44,117 nt of DNA from an uncultured Lachnospiraceae bacterium (lineage in GTDB: Bacteria; Bacillota; Clostridia; Lachnospirales; Lachnospiraceae), in NCBI GenBank assembly GCA_947039785.1, contig CAMQZX010000005.1, positions 1 through 44,117 on the forward strand, read 5' to 3'. How positions within the stretch are numbered: position 1 is the first letter of the stretch; every line of letters starts with the position of its first letter. The notes beneath the pieces are model-generated. The model ran no database searches. It had not been told where the DNA came from and saw only the letters and a program-made list of their open reading frames with translations. Both the position numbers and the translations under genes were made by a program. Below, one piece after another: positions 9,872 through 18,659 of the stretch.

Positions 9872-10504
9872 ATGATGAAAAATATGATTATTCAGCAATG
9901 TGTACTGGGCATGGTCTGTACCAATTGCTATTTTCTGATGAATAAAGAAACGAAGGAATTGTTGATTGTGGATCCGGCTGATGCGCCGGAGAAAATTGAC
10001 CAGATGGTGGTTCGCATGGAAGGTAAGCCGGTGGGGATTTTGCTCACCCACGGCCATTATGATCACATTTTGGCAGTGGAAGCAGTCCGGGAAAAATATG
10101 GACTGAAGGTTTACGCCCATCAGGATGAGGCGGCTCTTCTGAAAAATCCCACCCTGAACCTGTCTGGCTATGGCCAGGGCGGATGCCGTGTTGTACCCGA
10201 TGAATTACTGGTGGATGGACAAAAATTTCAGGAAGCAGGGTTTGAGATTCAAGTGATTCATACACCAGGGCATACTGCAGGAAGCTGCTGTTATTATTTT
10301 CAGGAGGAGGGAATTCTAGTCAGCGGAGATACACTGTTTTGCGGTTCTGTGGGACGTACCGATCTTCCCACAGGAAGTACCAGCCAGATCATAGACAGTC
10401 TGCATAAGCTTTTAGATAATCTGCCTGAAGAGATAGATGTACTTCCGGGACATGAATCCACCACCACAATTGGATATGAAAAGAGGTATAATCCTTTTGT
10501 ATAA
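9872..10504 (+). CDS. MBL-fold metallo-hydrolase (glyoxalase II-like)
   Basis: A 210-residue metallo-beta-lactamase-fold hydrolase. THGHYDH gives the metal-binding HxHxDH motif (His60, His62, Asp64, His65). HTPGHTAGSCCYYF and SGDTLF supply the next ligands, and PGHE gives a late His. This is the YcbL/glyoxalase II-like subgroup, which often hydrolyses thioesters such as S-lactoyl thiols. The true substrate cannot be read from sequence. The start ATG 9872 follows AAGGAG overlapping the rel stop codon, so translation is probably coupled. ATG 9875 is an alternative start. The 3' end overlaps the hemZ start. Confidence 0.88.
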   Translation: MMKNMIIQQCVLGMVCTNCYFLMNKETKELLIVDPADAPEKIDQMVVRMEGKPVGILLTHGHYDHILAVEAVREKYGLKVYAHQDEAALLKNPTLNLSGYGQGGCRVVPDELLVDGQKFQEAGFEIQVIHTPGHTAGSCCYYFQEEGILVSGDTLFCGSVGRTDLPTGSTSQIIDSLHKLLDNLPEEIDVLPGHESTTTIGYEKRYNPFV

Positions 10505-12563
10505 GATAGGTATATGGTTTAATAAGCAAGATTACGAATACGACGTTCATTCCCTGATGATGGCATTTTACCCGGGCTCCGAGATTTCACTTTTGTATGG
10601 AGAGACTCTGGCGGAGGAACAGTTTGAGCCTTTGATCTACAATACTGCCATGAAAGTGGAGTACAAGGAAGGTCAGATTGGTTTGACTGCGTTTCAGGAT
10701 GGTGAGATTTACTATGAAAGTGCAGCGGTGGAGTCCTATGAGGACAGGAAAGAGACTAAGAATCGTCTGAAGCAGGCGGTATATCGGGTGCTTTCCAAAA
10801 TTACGGGTAAGGTACTGCCTTGGGGTACTCTGACGGGAATCCGTCCTACCAAGCTTCCCATGCAGATGCTGGAGCAGGGGATGAAAAATGTGGACATTGC
10901 CCGGTATCTGCGGGATACTTACTACACGTCCAACGAAAAGACTGCCTTAAGCATCGCCATTGCCAACAGGGAAAGAGAAATTTTAAAAGATATTGATTAC
11001 GAGAATGGCTACAGTTTGTATGTGGGCATTCCCTTTTGTCCCAGTATTTGTCTGTATTGTTCCTTTAGCTCGTATCCGCTGGAGAGGTGGAAGAAAAGGG
11101 TAGATGAATACGTGGATACTCTGTGTTATGAGATTCGAAAGACTGGGGATTTCATGGCAGGCAGAAAGCTAAATACGATTTATATTGGCGGTGGAACACC
11201 CACCACACTCAGTCCCAGGCAGCTTCGGCGGGTGCTTACCTGTCTGGGAGAAGTCTTTTCCTATGATGATCTGCAGGAATTTACCGTGGAGGCGGGGCGC
11301 CCTGACAGCATTACCCGTGAGAAACTGCAGGTGCTTCGTGAGTTTCCGGTGACCAGAATTTCCGTTAACCCCCAGACTATGAATCAGGAGACGCTGGAGA
11401 TTATTGGAAGGCGTCATACAGTAGAGGACACCAAAGAAGCCTTTCTTCTGGCAAGAGAGCTGGGCTTTGACAACATCAATATGGATTTGATTGTTGGCCT
11501 TCCGGGAGAAGATAAGGAGATGGTCCGACATACCCTGGAGGAAGTAAAGGCGTTAAATCCCGACAGTCTTACTGTGCATTCACTGGCGGTGAAGCGGGCG
11601 GCCAGACTGCATATGTTCCGGGATCAGTATCAGGAGATGACCTTTGAAAACAGTCAGGAAATCATGGACATGACCATGGAGTACGCCCATGAGATGGAGA
11701 TGGGTCCCTACTATCTGTATCGCCAGAAAAATATGGCGGGAAATTTTGAAAATGTAGGTTATTCCCGGGAAGGCAAAGCAGGGATTTACAATATTTTGAT
11801 TATGGAGGAGAAGCAGCCCATTCTGGCTCTGGGAGCCGGCGGGTCCACCAAGCTGGTTTTTGACCATGGGCGCCGCATTGAGCGGGTGGAAAACGTAAAA
11901 GATGTGACGAACTACCTCCAGAGAATTGATGAGATGATTGAGCGCAAGCGTGTAGGAATCGAGAAATATCTGGGAATGCCGAAAAAGAAAGAAGATTCTC
12001 AGGATGGCGATTCCGGGGAGAGTGCGCCGGGTGAGATCGTGTTAGACCTTACCAACGAGATGAATCACGCCATTCAGGTCAGCAATTTTGCCTATGAAGT
12101 GGGGCGGGAGCTGAAGCTGGATGAGGAGACCTGCCATGAACTTGCCTTGGCAGGAATGCTTCACGATATCGGCAAGATTAAGCTCAATCGCTATATCAAC
12201 GGAGTGGAAGATCCCATGGCCATTGAGAAGCTGAAATATGACAGGATGCATTCTCAGTTGGGGTATGAGGCTTTGAAAGATCAAGGCTATTCCAGGTTTA
12301 TTCTGGATTGTATTTTATATCATCATGAGAATTATGACGGCAGCGGTTATCCGTGCAATCTGCGGGGAGAGGATATTCCTTTTGGCGCCCGAATCATGCA
12401 TGTCTGTGATGTGTATGTAGCATTGCGTTCCGACAGGCCCTATCGTTCTGCCTTTGATGTGAATACGGCCATGGAGCTGATGATTGAAGAGGTGAAAAAC
12501 TTCGATATGGAGGTTTTTCTTGCCTTTCAAAGAGTAGTACATAATAAATTATCAGAGGAATAA
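10497..12563 (+). CDS. hemZ: HemZ-type radical SAM coproporphyrinogen dehydrogenase fused to HD-GYP domain
   Basis: A two-part protein. The first ~490 residues are HemZ, of the oxygen-independent coproporphyrinogen oxidase-like radical-SAM family. It has CPSICLYC (Cys181, 185, 188), the GGGTPTTLS motif and a HemN-like C-terminal part. After an acidic linker (about 495-520), a complete HD-GYP domain follows: HDIGK (His556-Asp557), RMHSQLGYEAL, HHENYDGSGYP (His609 to Pro619) and SDRPYR. HD-GYP enzymes typically hydrolyse cyclic di-GMP. I chose TTG 10497 (688 residues) because AGAGG at 10482-10486 precedes it and the product begins MYKIGIWFNKQDYEYDVHS, which looks like a HemZ start. ATG 10476 (695 residues) and ATG 10437 (708) are alternatives without a good Shine-Dalgarno. 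Confidence 0.85.
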   Translation: MYKIGIWFNKQDYEYDVHSLMMAFYPGSEISLLYGETLAEEQFEPLIYNTAMKVEYKEGQIGLTAFQDGEIYYESAAVESYEDRKETKNRLKQAVYRVLSKITGKVLPWGTLTGIRPTKLPMQMLEQGMKNVDIARYLRDTYYTSNEKTALSIAIANREREILKDIDYENGYSLYVGIPFCPSICLYCSFSSYPLERWKKRVDEYVDTLCYEIRKTGDFMAGRKLNTIYIGGGTPTTLSPRQLRRVLTCLGEVFSYDDLQEFTVEAGRPDSITREKLQVLREFPVTRISVNPQTMNQETLEIIGRRHTVEDTKEAFLLARELGFDNINMDLIVGLPGEDKEMVRHTLEEVKALNPDSLTVHSLAVKRAARLHMFRDQYQEMTFENSQEIMDMTMEYAHEMEMGPYYLYRQKNMAGNFENVGYSREGKAGIYNILIMEEKQPILALGAGGSTKLVFDHGRRIERVENVKDVTNYLQRIDEMIERKRVGIEKYLGMPKKKEDSQDGDSGESAPGEIVLDLTNEMNHAIQVSNFAYEVGRELKLDEETCHELALAGMLHDIGKIKLNRYINGVEDPMAIEKLKYDRMHSQLGYEALKDQGYSRFILDCILYHHENYDGSGYPCNLRGEDIPFGARIMHVCDVYVALRSDRPYRSAFDVNTAMELMIEEVKNFDMEVFLAFQRVVHNKLSEE

Positions 12564-12576
12564 AGAGGAGGATATT

Positions 12577-13833
12577 ATGGCAATGAAGAAAAAGCCGGTA
12601 ACCGGCATGAGAGATATTTTACCTAAGGAGATGGAGATTCGAAATTATGCGATGAATCTGATCCGGGAGACTTATGGAAGTTTCGGATTCGTTTCTCTGG
12701 AGACTCCCTGTGTGGAGCACATTGAGAATCTGTGCAGCAAGCAGGGCGGAGATAATGAGAAGCTGATCTTTAAGATTTTAAAGAGAGGTGAGAAGCTGAA
12801 AATTGACTCTGCAAAAGAAGAGATGGATCTGGTGGACGGAGGCCTTCGTTATGATTTGACGGTACCTCTTTCCAGATATTATTCCAACAATGCCAATGAG
12901 CTGCCTTCTCCATTTAAGGCATTGCAGATGGGAAATGTATGGAGAGCAGACAGACCTCAGAGAGGCCGTTTCCGTCAGTTTATGCAGTGTGATATTGACA
13001 TTCTGGGAGAGCCTTCCTGTCTGGCTGAGATTGATTTGATTCTGGCAACCAGTACCTTGCTTGGCAAACTGGATTTTAAGAACTTTACCATCCGTATCAA
13101 CGACCGTAAGATTTTAAAAGCCATGGCTGCATACAGCGGTTTCCCGGAAGAGAGCTATACTACTGTATTTATTATTCTGGATAAAATGGACAAGATCGGT
13201 CTGAATGGCGTTCGTCAGGAATTGTTGGATGAGGGCTTTGCAGCAGAGGCTATTGACAAATATTTAAGTCTGTTTGATCACATTACAAGAGATATTGAAG
13301 GTGTTCGTTACTGTGGTGAAGTTTTGAAGGATGTGATGGATGAGGGTGTCGCCCGTGACCTTGAGACTATTATGAAGAGTGTGGAAGCAGTGAAGACTGC
13401 AGAGTTTAAGATTGAATTTGACCCTACGCTGGTTCGTGGAATGTCTTATTACACAGGGCCGATCTTTGAAATTTCCATGGATGAGTACGGCGGTTCTGTA
13501 GGAGGCGGCGGACGTTATGATGAGATGATTGGTAAATTCATCGGTCAGAATGTATGTGCGACTGGATTTTCCATCGGATTTGAGCGTATTGTCATGCTGC
13601 TGATGGAGCGTGAGTATCAGGTTCCTTCTGCAAAACAGAAGAAAGCTTTCTTAGTGGAGAAAAATATGCCGTCTGATCAGCTTATGAAGGTCTTTGAGTT
13701 GGCAACAAGAGAGCGTGAAAATGGTATGCAGGTAACCATTACCGCCATGAAGAAGAATAAGAAATTCCAGAAGGATCAGCTGGAAGCAGAAGGTTATACA
13801 GAGATTCAGGAATTCTACAGCGACAGAATGTAA
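12577..13833 (+). CDS. hisS: Histidyl-tRNA synthetase
   Basis: A 418-residue class II synthetase that charges tRNA-His. It starts MAMKKKPVTGMRDILPKE, has motif 2 around GNVWRADRPQRGRFRQFMQCDID, the His-specific LVRGMSYYTG, and motif 3 with GGGGRYDEM and GFSIGFERI. The C-terminal anticodon-binding domain is present, and the length is normal. It starts at ATG 12577 behind AGAGGAGG, 13 bases after hemZ, in the rel operon. ATG 12583 is a possible alternative start. No T-box leader precedes it. Confidence 0.96.
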   Translation: MAMKKKPVTGMRDILPKEMEIRNYAMNLIRETYGSFGFVSLETPCVEHIENLCSKQGGDNEKLIFKILKRGEKLKIDSAKEEMDLVDGGLRYDLTVPLSRYYSNNANELPSPFKALQMGNVWRADRPQRGRFRQFMQCDIDILGEPSCLAEIDLILATSTLLGKLDFKNFTIRINDRKILKAMAAYSGFPEESYTTVFIILDKMDKIGLNGVRQELLDEGFAAEAIDKYLSLFDHITRDIEGVRYCGEVLKDVMDEGVARDLETIMKSVEAVKTAEFKIEFDPTLVRGMSYYTGPIFEISMDEYGGSVGGGGRYDEMIGKFIGQNVCATGFSIGFERIVMLLMEREYQVPSAKQKKAFLVEKNMPSDQLMKVFELATRERENGMQVTITAMKKNKKFQKDQLEAEGYTEIQEFYSDRM

Positions 13834-15824: not shown

Positions 15825-17066
15825 CTAATAGTAATCAGAATCGTAGCTGGAATCATAACTGGAGTCATAGTCAGAATCATAATAGGAGCTGTCGTATCCT
15901 GAATCATAATCACTGTTATAGCTGCTCTCTGATTGGGCTGCTGTGGATGCCTGGGCAGGAGCAATGGTTTCCATGGCTGTGGTAAGTGCGTCTGACAAAG
16001 TACCGAAAATGGCATTTCCAATAACACTGGTATCCTGCAGTACCCAGGAGATTCCGTCATTTACCATGGGGACTGTCACATCCAGTGTGATGGTGTCCTT
16101 GTTGGACTGAATGCAGTCTAACATCAGTTGGTAAGATTTGGAGCTGCGTCCTTCTTCTCCGTCATAAAGAGCCTGAGGAGTAGCCAGATATTCCTGAATC
16201 TGAGTTTCGTAGTTTTTCAGAATAGCATCGTAATCGAAGGTGGTGATTCCAACTTCAGCATTGGAAGTGTAGCCTTCCTGGGAACAGCTTCCGATTTCAT
16301 AGGCAAAACAAGACTGGACCTGCTGGATCAGTGCAGAAGTAAAGGCTTCTGTGGCTGTATTATCGGTATCCAATAACTGTGAAATTCCCAGATAATTAAT
16401 CAGCTGAGTATCGCTCATGCCCTGCATAGTGGAAAAATAAATGGTTAAAGTTTCTGTGGGGGTGAGAAGGTTGGGATTGGTAATGCAACTGATAAAGCCG
16501 CCCACGATTTCATTTTCCAGATCATTATTTTTCTTAATGTGCCAGGAACCCTTTGATTTTTTTAAATGCATGGTACAATTGGTCTCCACAGCTTCATATT
16601 GATTGTCTCGCATCAGTTGGTTCATCAGTTCAAAATGTTCGTCCAGGGTAGTTTCCTGTGCGGGAACCTGATTGGCTGTGTTGGCAGCGGCAAGGATTGC
16701 TTCTTCCAGATGGGCGCTGGCAAAGTCCTTGGCCAGCTTCTGGGCATCCAATGTGTTTAGCCGGAGTGAGGCGGTCGCTTTGTCGTCTTTTACTTCGATA
16801 TCCAGTATTTTATAATTAAAATCCTGGAAATAAAGAGAGATGAATTCTTCTACCAATTCTGAGTTTGAGATGGCTTCTGTGGCATTGGGGAATATGTTTT
16901 CGGCTGAAATGTATTGTTCTGCAGTTGCGGCATCCAGATTTTTCAGCTGATCCAAATCCTTGACGATTTCAGTTTCCACATCTGTTTTTTCTATGTTTCC
17001 GCAGCCTGTCAGCAACAGACAGAACGGAAAAATCAGCAACAGCAGAAGTTTGCTTTTCTTATTCAT
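15825..17066 (-). CDS. Lipoprotein of unknown function with Ser/Asp/Tyr-rich tail
   Basis: A 413-residue secreted lipoprotein. Residues 1-22 form a lipoprotein signal peptide with lipobox LLTGC (lipidated Cys22). The body contains two similar-looking alpha/beta segments of about 170 residues that I cannot assign to a family; it resembles clostridial DUF5105-type lipoproteins only loosely. Residues 379-413 are a low-complexity tail of Ser, Asp and Tyr (units such as DSSYDSSYDSDYY). The adaptor gene on the other strand also carries a DSSYDSS tail. The gene has its own promoter, divergent from the export operon at 17292, so a role alongside that exporter is possible but unproven. Confidence 0.8.
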   Translation of the reverse strand: MNKKSKLLLLLIFPFCLLLTGCGNIEKTDVETEIVKDLDQLKNLDAATAEQYISAENIFPNATEAISNSELVEEFISLYFQDFNYKILDIEVKDDKATASLRLNTLDAQKLAKDFASAHLEEAILAAANTANQVPAQETTLDEHFELMNQLMRDNQYEAVETNCTMHLKKSKGSWHIKKNNDLENEIVGGFISCITNPNLLTPTETLTIYFSTMQGMSDTQLINYLGISQLLDTDNTATEAFTSALIQQVQSCFAYEIGSCSQEGYTSNAEVGITTFDYDAILKNYETQIQEYLATPQALYDGEEGRSSKSYQLMLDCIQSNKDTITLDVTVPMVNDGISWVLQDTSVIGNAIFGTLSDALTTAMETIAPAQASTAAQSESSYNSDYDSGYDSSYYDSDYDSSYDSSYDSDYY

Positions 17067-17291: not shown

Positions 17292-18659
17292 ATGAAGAAA
17301 CGGATTGCAATGATCGGGGGGCTTGTGGTTGCAGTTGGCGTGGCAGGAGGTGCCGGATGGTACGTATGGAACCAGAAGGTAGGTTCTGGCGATGAAGAGA
17401 CAGTATATGTGACTACTGTGGCTACTTTGATGGGTGATGTATCCGGAACGCAGAACCGGTATGCCGGAGTGGTGGAACCTCAAAAGACAGTGAAAGTAAA
17501 GGTTGAAAGTAACCGAAAGGTGAAAAATGTGAAGGTAAAGGAAGGGGATACTGTTCAGGCCGGTGACGTGCTTTTTGAATATGATGCCAGTACATCAGAG
17601 GATAATCTCGCCCAGGCAGAATTGGATCTGGAACGTTATAAAAATGAGGCAAACAGCCTTACCAATCAGATTGAAACACTGAAAAAGGAGAAAAATGAAG
17701 CGTCAGCTGATGACCAGCTTTCCTATACCATTGAGATTCAGACAGCAGAGATGGATCTGAAGAAAAATGAATATAATCAGAAGAGTAAGGAAGCAGAGAT
17801 TGAAAAGCTGAAAAAGGCACTTAATGACCTGGAAGTGACCAGCGATATCACGGGTGTGATCAAGAAAATCAATGACTCTGTAATCAGCAGTTCTTCTGAC
17901 GATTTCAGTGATGAATCTTCTGGTGGGAGCAATGAGAGCACCACTTTTATTACCATTGTGGCAACGGGGACCTATCGGGTGAAAGGAACGGTCAATGAGA
18001 CTAACCGCAGTTCCATTGTGGAAGGTGAGCCGGTGCTGTTTCTCTCCAGAGTTGATGAGGATGTGACCTGGACAGGAATTATGGCCGGTGTGGATACCAA
18101 TGAACCAGAGAAAGAAAGCAGCAGCAACAGCGACTACTACGGTTCCGAAGGTAATGAGCAGACCACCTCCTCCAATTATCCTTTTTATGTGGAGCTGGAT
18201 TCTGCAGATGGACTGATGCTGGGACAGCACGTGTATATTGAGATGGACTACGGCCAGACGGAAATAAAGGACGGAATCTGGCTGGATGAGTTTTATATAA
18301 CAGATGCGGATACGCAGCCTTATGTATGGGCTTCTACAGAAAAGGATCGTCTGGAAAAAAGAGAGGTCACTCTGGGTGAGTATGACGAAGAACTGGGGAA
18401 GTATCAGATTACAGAAGGTCTGGCAAAGACGGATTGCATCGCATTTCCTGATGAATCTTATAAGGAGGGAATGAAGACCACCATCAATGAAAATGCCCAG
18501 ACACCTACCGAAAGCGGAATGGACGGGGAATTTGACAGCAGCTATGACAGTAGTATGGACAGCAGCTTCGACAACAGTGGTGAGGAGCTGCAGGATGCTT
18601 CCTTCGGCACTGATGAGGATGGCGTGGAAATCATCGAAGAGGGGGGGGCCCCTGAATGA
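17292..18659 (+). CDS. HlyD/MacA-like adaptor subunit of an ABC exporter (first of two)
   Basis: A 455-residue membrane-anchored adaptor, starting at ATG 17292 behind TAGGAGGA. Residues about 7-28 form a signal-anchor helix. The lipoyl/biotinyl-like half-motif KVKEGDTVQAGDVLFEYD lies near 75-95. A long helical hairpin (about 100-185) is rich in Lys and Glu heptads. Two Ser/Asp-rich loops follow in the beta domain. The C-terminus (about 411-440) is a low-complexity DSSYDSSMDSSFDNS tail. In a Gram-positive cell such adaptors sit outside the membrane on a MacB-like permease. The last codons cross a G8 run, and the stop overlaps the ATPase start as ATGA, so translation is coupled. Confidence 0.88.
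   Translation: MKKRIAMIGGLVVAVGVAGGAGWYVWNQKVGSGDEETVYVTTVATLMGDVSGTQNRYAGVVEPQKTVKVKVESNRKVKNVKVKEGDTVQAGDVLFEYDASTSEDNLAQAELDLERYKNEANSLTNQIETLKKEKNEASADDQLSYTIEIQTAEMDLKKNEYNQKSKEAEIEKLKKALNDLEVTSDITGVIKKINDSVISSSSDDFSDESSGGSNESTTFITIVATGTYRVKGTVNETNRSSIVEGEPVLFLSRVDEDVTWTGIMAGVDTNEPEKESSSNSDYYGSEGNEQTTSSNYPFYVELDSADGLMLGQHVYIEMDYGQTEIKDGIWLDEFYITDADTQPYVWASTEKDRLEKREVTLGEYDEELGKYQITEGLAKTDCIAFPDESYKEGMKTTINENAQTPTESGMDGEFDSSYDSSMDSSFDNSGEELQDASFGTDEDGVEIIEEGGAPE
18641..18648 (+). repeat. G8 homopolymer at the adaptor/ATPase junction
   Basis: Eight consecutive G residues encode Glu-Gly-Gly-Ala near the end of the first adaptor, eight bases before the ATPase start codon. Slippage here would change the adaptor C-terminus and the ATGA coupling to the next gene. 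Confidence 0.85.

Follow-up and report, generated by a model that had tools for sequence, protein, structure and literature searches.

Organization of the locus

The window, meaning the whole stretch of 44,117 nucleotides that was analysed, is contig 5 of a 4.1 Mb draft genome (G000; 96% complete, 375 contigs) of an uncultured Lachnospiraceae bacterium. On its forward strand lies a gene whose product consists of a HemZ-type radical-SAM part and, beyond a low-confidence linker of ~30 residues, an HD-GYP domain in which no metal ligand is missing (Table 1). A Shine-Dalgarno-like AAAGAGG precedes the TTG at 10497, and the frame runs uninterrupted from there to the TAA at 12561-12563; two further in-frame starts lie 5' of it (ATG 10437 and ATG 10476), both of which overlap the preceding gene. 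No Rfam elements were found in the window.

Table 1. Features of the hemZ-HD-GYP locus, in window coordinates
Feature	Position	Strand	Basis or remark
MBL-fold hydrolase gene, upstream	9872..10504	+	Lactamase_B, E 4e-27; overlaps the fusion start
hemZ-HD-GYP fusion gene	10497..12563	+	688 codons, TTG start, TAA stop
HemZ part, residues 1-485	10497..11951	+	N-terminal alpha/beta region and radical-SAM core
Gly177, site of E. coli HemN catalytic His58	11025..11027	+	alignment to 1olt
[4Fe-4S] motif CxxxCxxC (C181, C185, C188)	11037..11060	+	sequence; aligned to the 1olt motif
Linker	11973..12044	+	pLDDT <50 at residues 501-515
Possible internal GTG start	12039..12041	+	weak GGTGA upstream
HD-GYP domain, residues 522-673	12060..12515	+	HD_5 (Pfam), E 3.5e-28
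HDIGK motif (H556, D557, K560)	12162..12176	+	sequence
HHENYDGSGYP motif (H609, H610, GYP 617-619)	12321..12353	+	sequence
hisS, downstream	12577..13833	+	TIGR00442, 308 bits; 13 bases past the fusion stop

The original prediction that HemZ is joined to an HD-GYP domain in one frame is borne out: all 688 codons are open, TIGR03994 and HD_5 both match, and the Pfam domains Radical_SAM (residues 178-349) and HD_5 lie in the same frame. Structure modelling agrees with it as well; an AlphaFold2 model, computed from aligned homologues of both the fused and the separate kind, has a mean pLDDT of 88.5 and consists of two confident blocks connected by the low-confidence linker. The original prediction named no described example, and no paper treating HemZ and HD-GYP together was found in the open-access literature; the fused architecture is real and apparently undescribed.

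Some of the neighbouring genes have peculiarities of their own. In PDB scores, the hisS product ranks eukaryotic cytosolic and archaeal HisRS above E. coli HisRS, and the hisS at the same locus of G332 (L158, 2582-3562) is only ~26% identical to it; a replacement of hisS in place is possible. Further downstream, two divergent genes encode a putative lipoprotein with no Pfam match (15825-17066, minus strand) and a biotin-lipoyl-like export protein (17292-18659, plus strand), both with Ser/Tyr/Asp-rich stretches (DSSYDSSYDSDYY; DSSYDSSMDSSFD).

The gene pair in related genomes and the origins of the fusion

HemZ is present in 282 of the 299 genomes of the family sample, and hemZ and a gene for an HD-GYP protein are adjacent, often overlapping, in most Lachnospiraceae loci examined. 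A scan of GTDB contigs together with the family sample yielded 131 classified hemZ loci, duplicates among them, that comprise 87 split pairs, 12 fusions and 32 loci without an adjacent HD gene (2 of these at a contig end). These counts are not prevalences, as the samples are enriched for HD-linked loci: the contig scan was queried with peptides from both halves and kept the best 80 matches, and the loci followed up were mostly top scorers with the full-length query. With duplicates removed, 86 HD-linked loci remain, 77 with a separate downstream HD gene and 9 fused. With HD starts assigned by a simple best-start rule, 36 of the 77 separate HD genes begin no later than the hemZ stop, and 59 begin within 30 nt of it. 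Outside the family, an HD search across the order with a strict cut-off found the pair as adjacent genes in two genomes of other families (f4 and f21; G302 and G332). Conversely, the partnership is not obligatory, since many Lachnospiraceae, Roseburia and Agathobacter among them, keep HemZ with no adjoining HD gene.

The nine fusions, with linkers that differ, are those of the window, L017, L018, G257, G014, G295, G080, G183 and G132. Eight other genomes thus share the fused architecture, without stops. In both same-genus genomes (G001 and G002), hemZ and the HD-GYP gene are two overlapping genes in different frames, and separate genes in close relatives had been named in advance as counting against the fusion; that arrangement holds in both congeners, but not in the eight stop-free fused genomes. 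In a maximum-likelihood tree of HemZ (117 rows), the window groups with the two split congeners at 100% support, within a large clade of split pairs, and fusion as a character takes five changes on it, of which at least two are forced by well-supported branches. From this placement among split relatives, the tree shows that the split pair is the older state in the window's lineage, that the window fusion is derived and that fusion has recurred elsewhere; there are at least two origins and probably more.

The separate HD start of the congeners has a clear Shine-Dalgarno sequence, TTGGGAGGAGTCACAGATG, within the end of hemZ; by eye, it aligns with an ATG at 11976 in the window linker, where the congeners' Shine-Dalgarno is absent. 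Compared with both congeners, the window junction is a net 8 bases longer, carries many substitutions and lacks the Shine-Dalgarno GGGAGGAG. A separate HD protein could be made from the GTG at 12039. If a single base were gained or lost in the linker, HemZ would stop after 512-515 codons, a length similar to that in the congeners. Third-position G+C stays level from one side of the join to the other.

The HemZ half and the heme pathway of the host

TIGR03994, the NCBIfam model for HemZ, spans residues 88-485 with 637 bits against a curated cut-off of 321, which places the first half firmly in that family, and Foldseek leads from the same half of the model to E. coli HemN, with 1olt the closest solved structure. 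Published work on HemZ either takes it for a coproporphyrinogen dehydrogenase or places it as a clade within the HemN-like proteins, and a phylogeny of the latter cautions that other functions exist among CgdH-like proteins (PMC10320005). One paper on CgoN/YtpQ turned out to be irrelevant.

The catalytic residues of E. coli HemN are Tyr56 and His58 (PMC10964404). As expected for coproporphyrinogen III dehydrogenases (HemN/CgdH), the CxxxCxxC motif is present in the window protein; the pair of catalytic residues is not, for Tyr56 is kept (LYVGIPFC) and the His58 position is Gly, as it is in 123 of 127 HemZ loci. HemN_C gave no match among 32 HemZ-containing rows.

The host's ability to supply the substrate bears on the same question. 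A profile search of G000 found no HemE-grade URO-D match (the best, at 55 bits, is partial), and there was no URO-D match at all in G002, G257, G014, G080, G295, G104 and G120; stronger URO-D matches occur in G259 and G238, which have the pair, and the absence of HemE is a point limited to G000 and the genomes named. HemB, which is expected for corrinoid synthesis, is present in G000; it had no match in G143, another genome with the pair. Because HemE was not found, G000 has no standard route to coproporphyrinogen III, which the host of a HemN/CgdH enzyme would be expected to make; a porphyrin from outside could still be a substrate of HemZ. Together with the Gly at the His58 position, the missing HemE makes the annotated coproporphyrinogen dehydrogenase activity of the window protein doubtful.

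The HD-GYP half

The complete HD-GYP signature that had been predicted is found in the second half, including SDRPYR besides the two motifs of Table 1, and the window has the ligands (H..HD..H..HH..D) and the GYP that define the family. Of the 86 HemZ-linked HD domains, 85 keep all of the ligands H524, H556-D557, H585, H609-H610 and D638, and 75 have Lys560 and GYP intact as well; the departures are mostly GFP for GYP, with HDIGR in the two congeners. The sole HemZ-linked HD domain with three metal ligands lost is that of L051 (4465-5097), where positions 585, 609 and 610 are F, Q and R.

A scheme for the number of metals in HD-GYP proteins has been published (PMC8177086). The Glu185 of PmGH that marks the trinuclear subclass corresponds to Asn (H-4) in the window and is Glu in 28 of the 86 domains; since this third-metal Glu is not conserved, the scheme predicts a dinuclear site for the window HD half. 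With Foldseek, this half of the model matches PmGH (4mcw), DvhD (9rbz) and PA4781 (4r8z), and V-cGAP3 and PgpH are also among the structural matches.

Between G001 and G002, dN/dS is 0.030 for the HD gene and 0.023 for hemZ, in a single pair that pools branches before and after GGDEF loss (G001 has no GGDEF, G002 has 11); such values indicate strong purifying selection on both genes. Stand-alone HD-GYP relatives of 181 aa occur in family f22 (L159-L162). They were considered as lost hemZ partners and rejected: where read, they adjoin rsmA and not hemZ, and in L159 and L160 the His of the HD motif is gone (FLDMGK and FIDMGK), with HHENYDGSGYP kept.

Cyclic dinucleotides in the host genomes

GGDEF proteins are present in 37 of the 45 genomes searched. 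Profile searches found no GGDEF and no EAL in seven genomes with the pair (G000, G001, G259, G238, G143, G272 and G132), of which G001 is 98% complete and G272 is a single contig, and in five of these (G000, G238, G143, G272 and G132) the HemZ-linked HD domain is the only HD-GYP. A host that makes c-di-GMP, as expected for a c-di-GMP phosphodiesterase, is thus not what the window genome appears to be, an absence inferred from a 96%-complete draft in 375 contigs. The absence of GGDEF is unlikely to stem from poor search sensitivity, since the divergent GGDEF-like GdpP was detected by the same method in all eight genomes tested, GGDEF-free ones included. Within one genus, G000 and G001 lack GGDEF and EAL whereas G002 has 11 GGDEF and 5 EAL, a contrast that would mean that c-di-GMP signalling as a whole was lost or gained recently.

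PgpH-type PF07697 is absent from the genomes tested. Turnover of c-di-AMP, considered as the missing role of the HD half, was rejected, as it is already provided for by GdpP in 8 of 8 genomes. The functional side of the original prediction, which tied tetrapyrrole chemistry to c-di-GMP turnover, is not supported in G000, with 0 GGDEF, 0 EAL, a single HD-GYP, no HemE and His58 replaced by Gly.

A proposed functional module and its alternatives

The explanation we favour is that the window holds a genuine, recent in-frame fusion of neighbours and that the pair forms one module serving, in this host, neither heme synthesis nor c-di-GMP signalling; we regard this as having about an even chance of being right. 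hemZ and the small HD-GYP gene adjoin and often overlap across much of Lachnospiraceae, and translational coupling between them is probable. Conserved adjacency, low dN/dS on both genes and repeated fusion all suggest that the two proteins make up one functional module. Judging from its motif and fold, the HemZ half would bind a [4Fe-4S] cluster and SAM and carry out a radical reaction; the HD half, with its intact dinuclear site, would hydrolyse a phosphodiester or phosphoester that this same process uses or produces, and the fusion would tether both activities. The process is most likely neither heme nor c-di-GMP metabolism here, because HemE and GGDEF were not found by profile search of the 96%-complete genome. 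A module outside c-di-GMP signalling is favoured by the persistence of the pair as the only HD-GYP in GGDEF/EAL-free genomes, and argued against by an HD fold and ligands that are those of known c-di-GMP and cGAMP phosphodiesterases and by the GGDEF proteins in most genomes searched. The wider claim, that Lachnospiraceae and relatives share a conserved, repeatedly fused module in which HD-GYP acts on something other than c-di-GMP and HemZ works outside the heme pathway, is plausible, though we would sooner bet against it than for it.

Alternatively, the protein could be a c-di-GMP phosphodiesterase tuned by a porphyrin-binding HemZ domain, for heme or redox sensing. The complete HD-GYP signature, nearest structures that are c-di-GMP enzymes or receptors, the GGDEF proteins of many pair-bearing genomes and the precedent of a heme-linked, globin-coupled HD-GYP in Vibrio fluvialis (PMC10882959) all fit such an enzyme. 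It is nonetheless rather unlikely, given that GGDEF and EAL are both missing from the window genome and from six others with the pair, that the HemZ-linked domain is the only HD-GYP left in G000 and in four more genomes free of GGDEF, and that HemE was not found and HemZ lacks both His58 and HemN_C.

A different dinucleotide, cyclic or linear (3'3'-cGAMP, pGpG or c-di-AMP), could be the substrate of the HD half, with co-regulation as the only link to HemZ. Some HD-GYP proteins act on 3'3'-cGAMP, and pGpG is the preferred substrate of PA4781 (reviewed in PMC8177086), which agrees with V-cGAP3 and PgpH among the structural matches; we nevertheless consider it improbable, as GdpP covers c-di-AMP in all eight genomes tested, a cell with no GGDEF makes no c-di-GMP and hence no pGpG, and fusion that has happened repeatedly speaks for a closer tie than co-regulation. 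To the same degree improbable is an accidental read-through fusion with no functional meaning, in which the halves work independently: overlapping genes fuse easily, the linkers of the nine fusions differ, that of the window is of low confidence and an internal start may exist at 12039, but adjacency is kept over three families and fusion recurs. Least probable of all, and very unlikely, is an assembly or sequencing error, foreseen in the original prediction, that joined two truly overlapping genes by a linker indel; the split state of both congeners with HD in another frame, the congener-like HemZ that a one-base indel would restore and, as the main caveat on the fusion, the single draft assembly in 375 contigs speak for it, whereas a simple one-base difference from the congeners does not explain a junction with 8 extra bases, many substitutions and no GGGAGGAG, third-position G+C is even over the join and clean fusions exist in eight other genomes.

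Should the wider claim of a shared module be true, a class of HD-GYP proteins would be at work outside c-di-GMP signalling. It is important to bear in mind that default naming carries a risk here, as c-di-GMP phosphodiesterase is the routine annotation for HD-GYP proteins, and heme enzyme that for HemZ. Hosts free of GGDEF and EAL, and in the case of the window also of HemE, offer a clean genetic setting in which to look for other HD-GYP substrates and for the role of HemZ in abundant gut anaerobes that lack heme.

Comparison with known systems

E. coli HemN (1olt) is the nearest structure for the N-terminal part and has the [4Fe-4S] motif in common with it; in contrast to HemN, the window protein has neither His58 nor HemN_C, and only ~240 residues align by sequence. 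HemZ proteins (TIGR03994), annotated as coproporphyrinogen dehydrogenases, share CxxxCxxC, GGGTPT and the radical-SAM core, whereas the window protein runs on into HD-GYP, has Gly at the His58 position and comes from a genome without HemE. For the second half, PmGH (4mcw), PA4781 (4r8z), V-cGAP3 (5z7c) and the receptor DvhD (9rbz) have the same fold, ligand set and GYP; the window protein, however, is without the third-metal Glu of PmGH and its genome without a partner GGDEF. The globin-coupled HD-GYP of Vibrio fluvialis has a heme-binding globin sensor as its partner (PMC10882959), whereas the partner in the window is a radical-SAM enzyme, among whose known features heme binding does not figure; the two systems are alike in that an HD-GYP domain is joined to a heme-related one.
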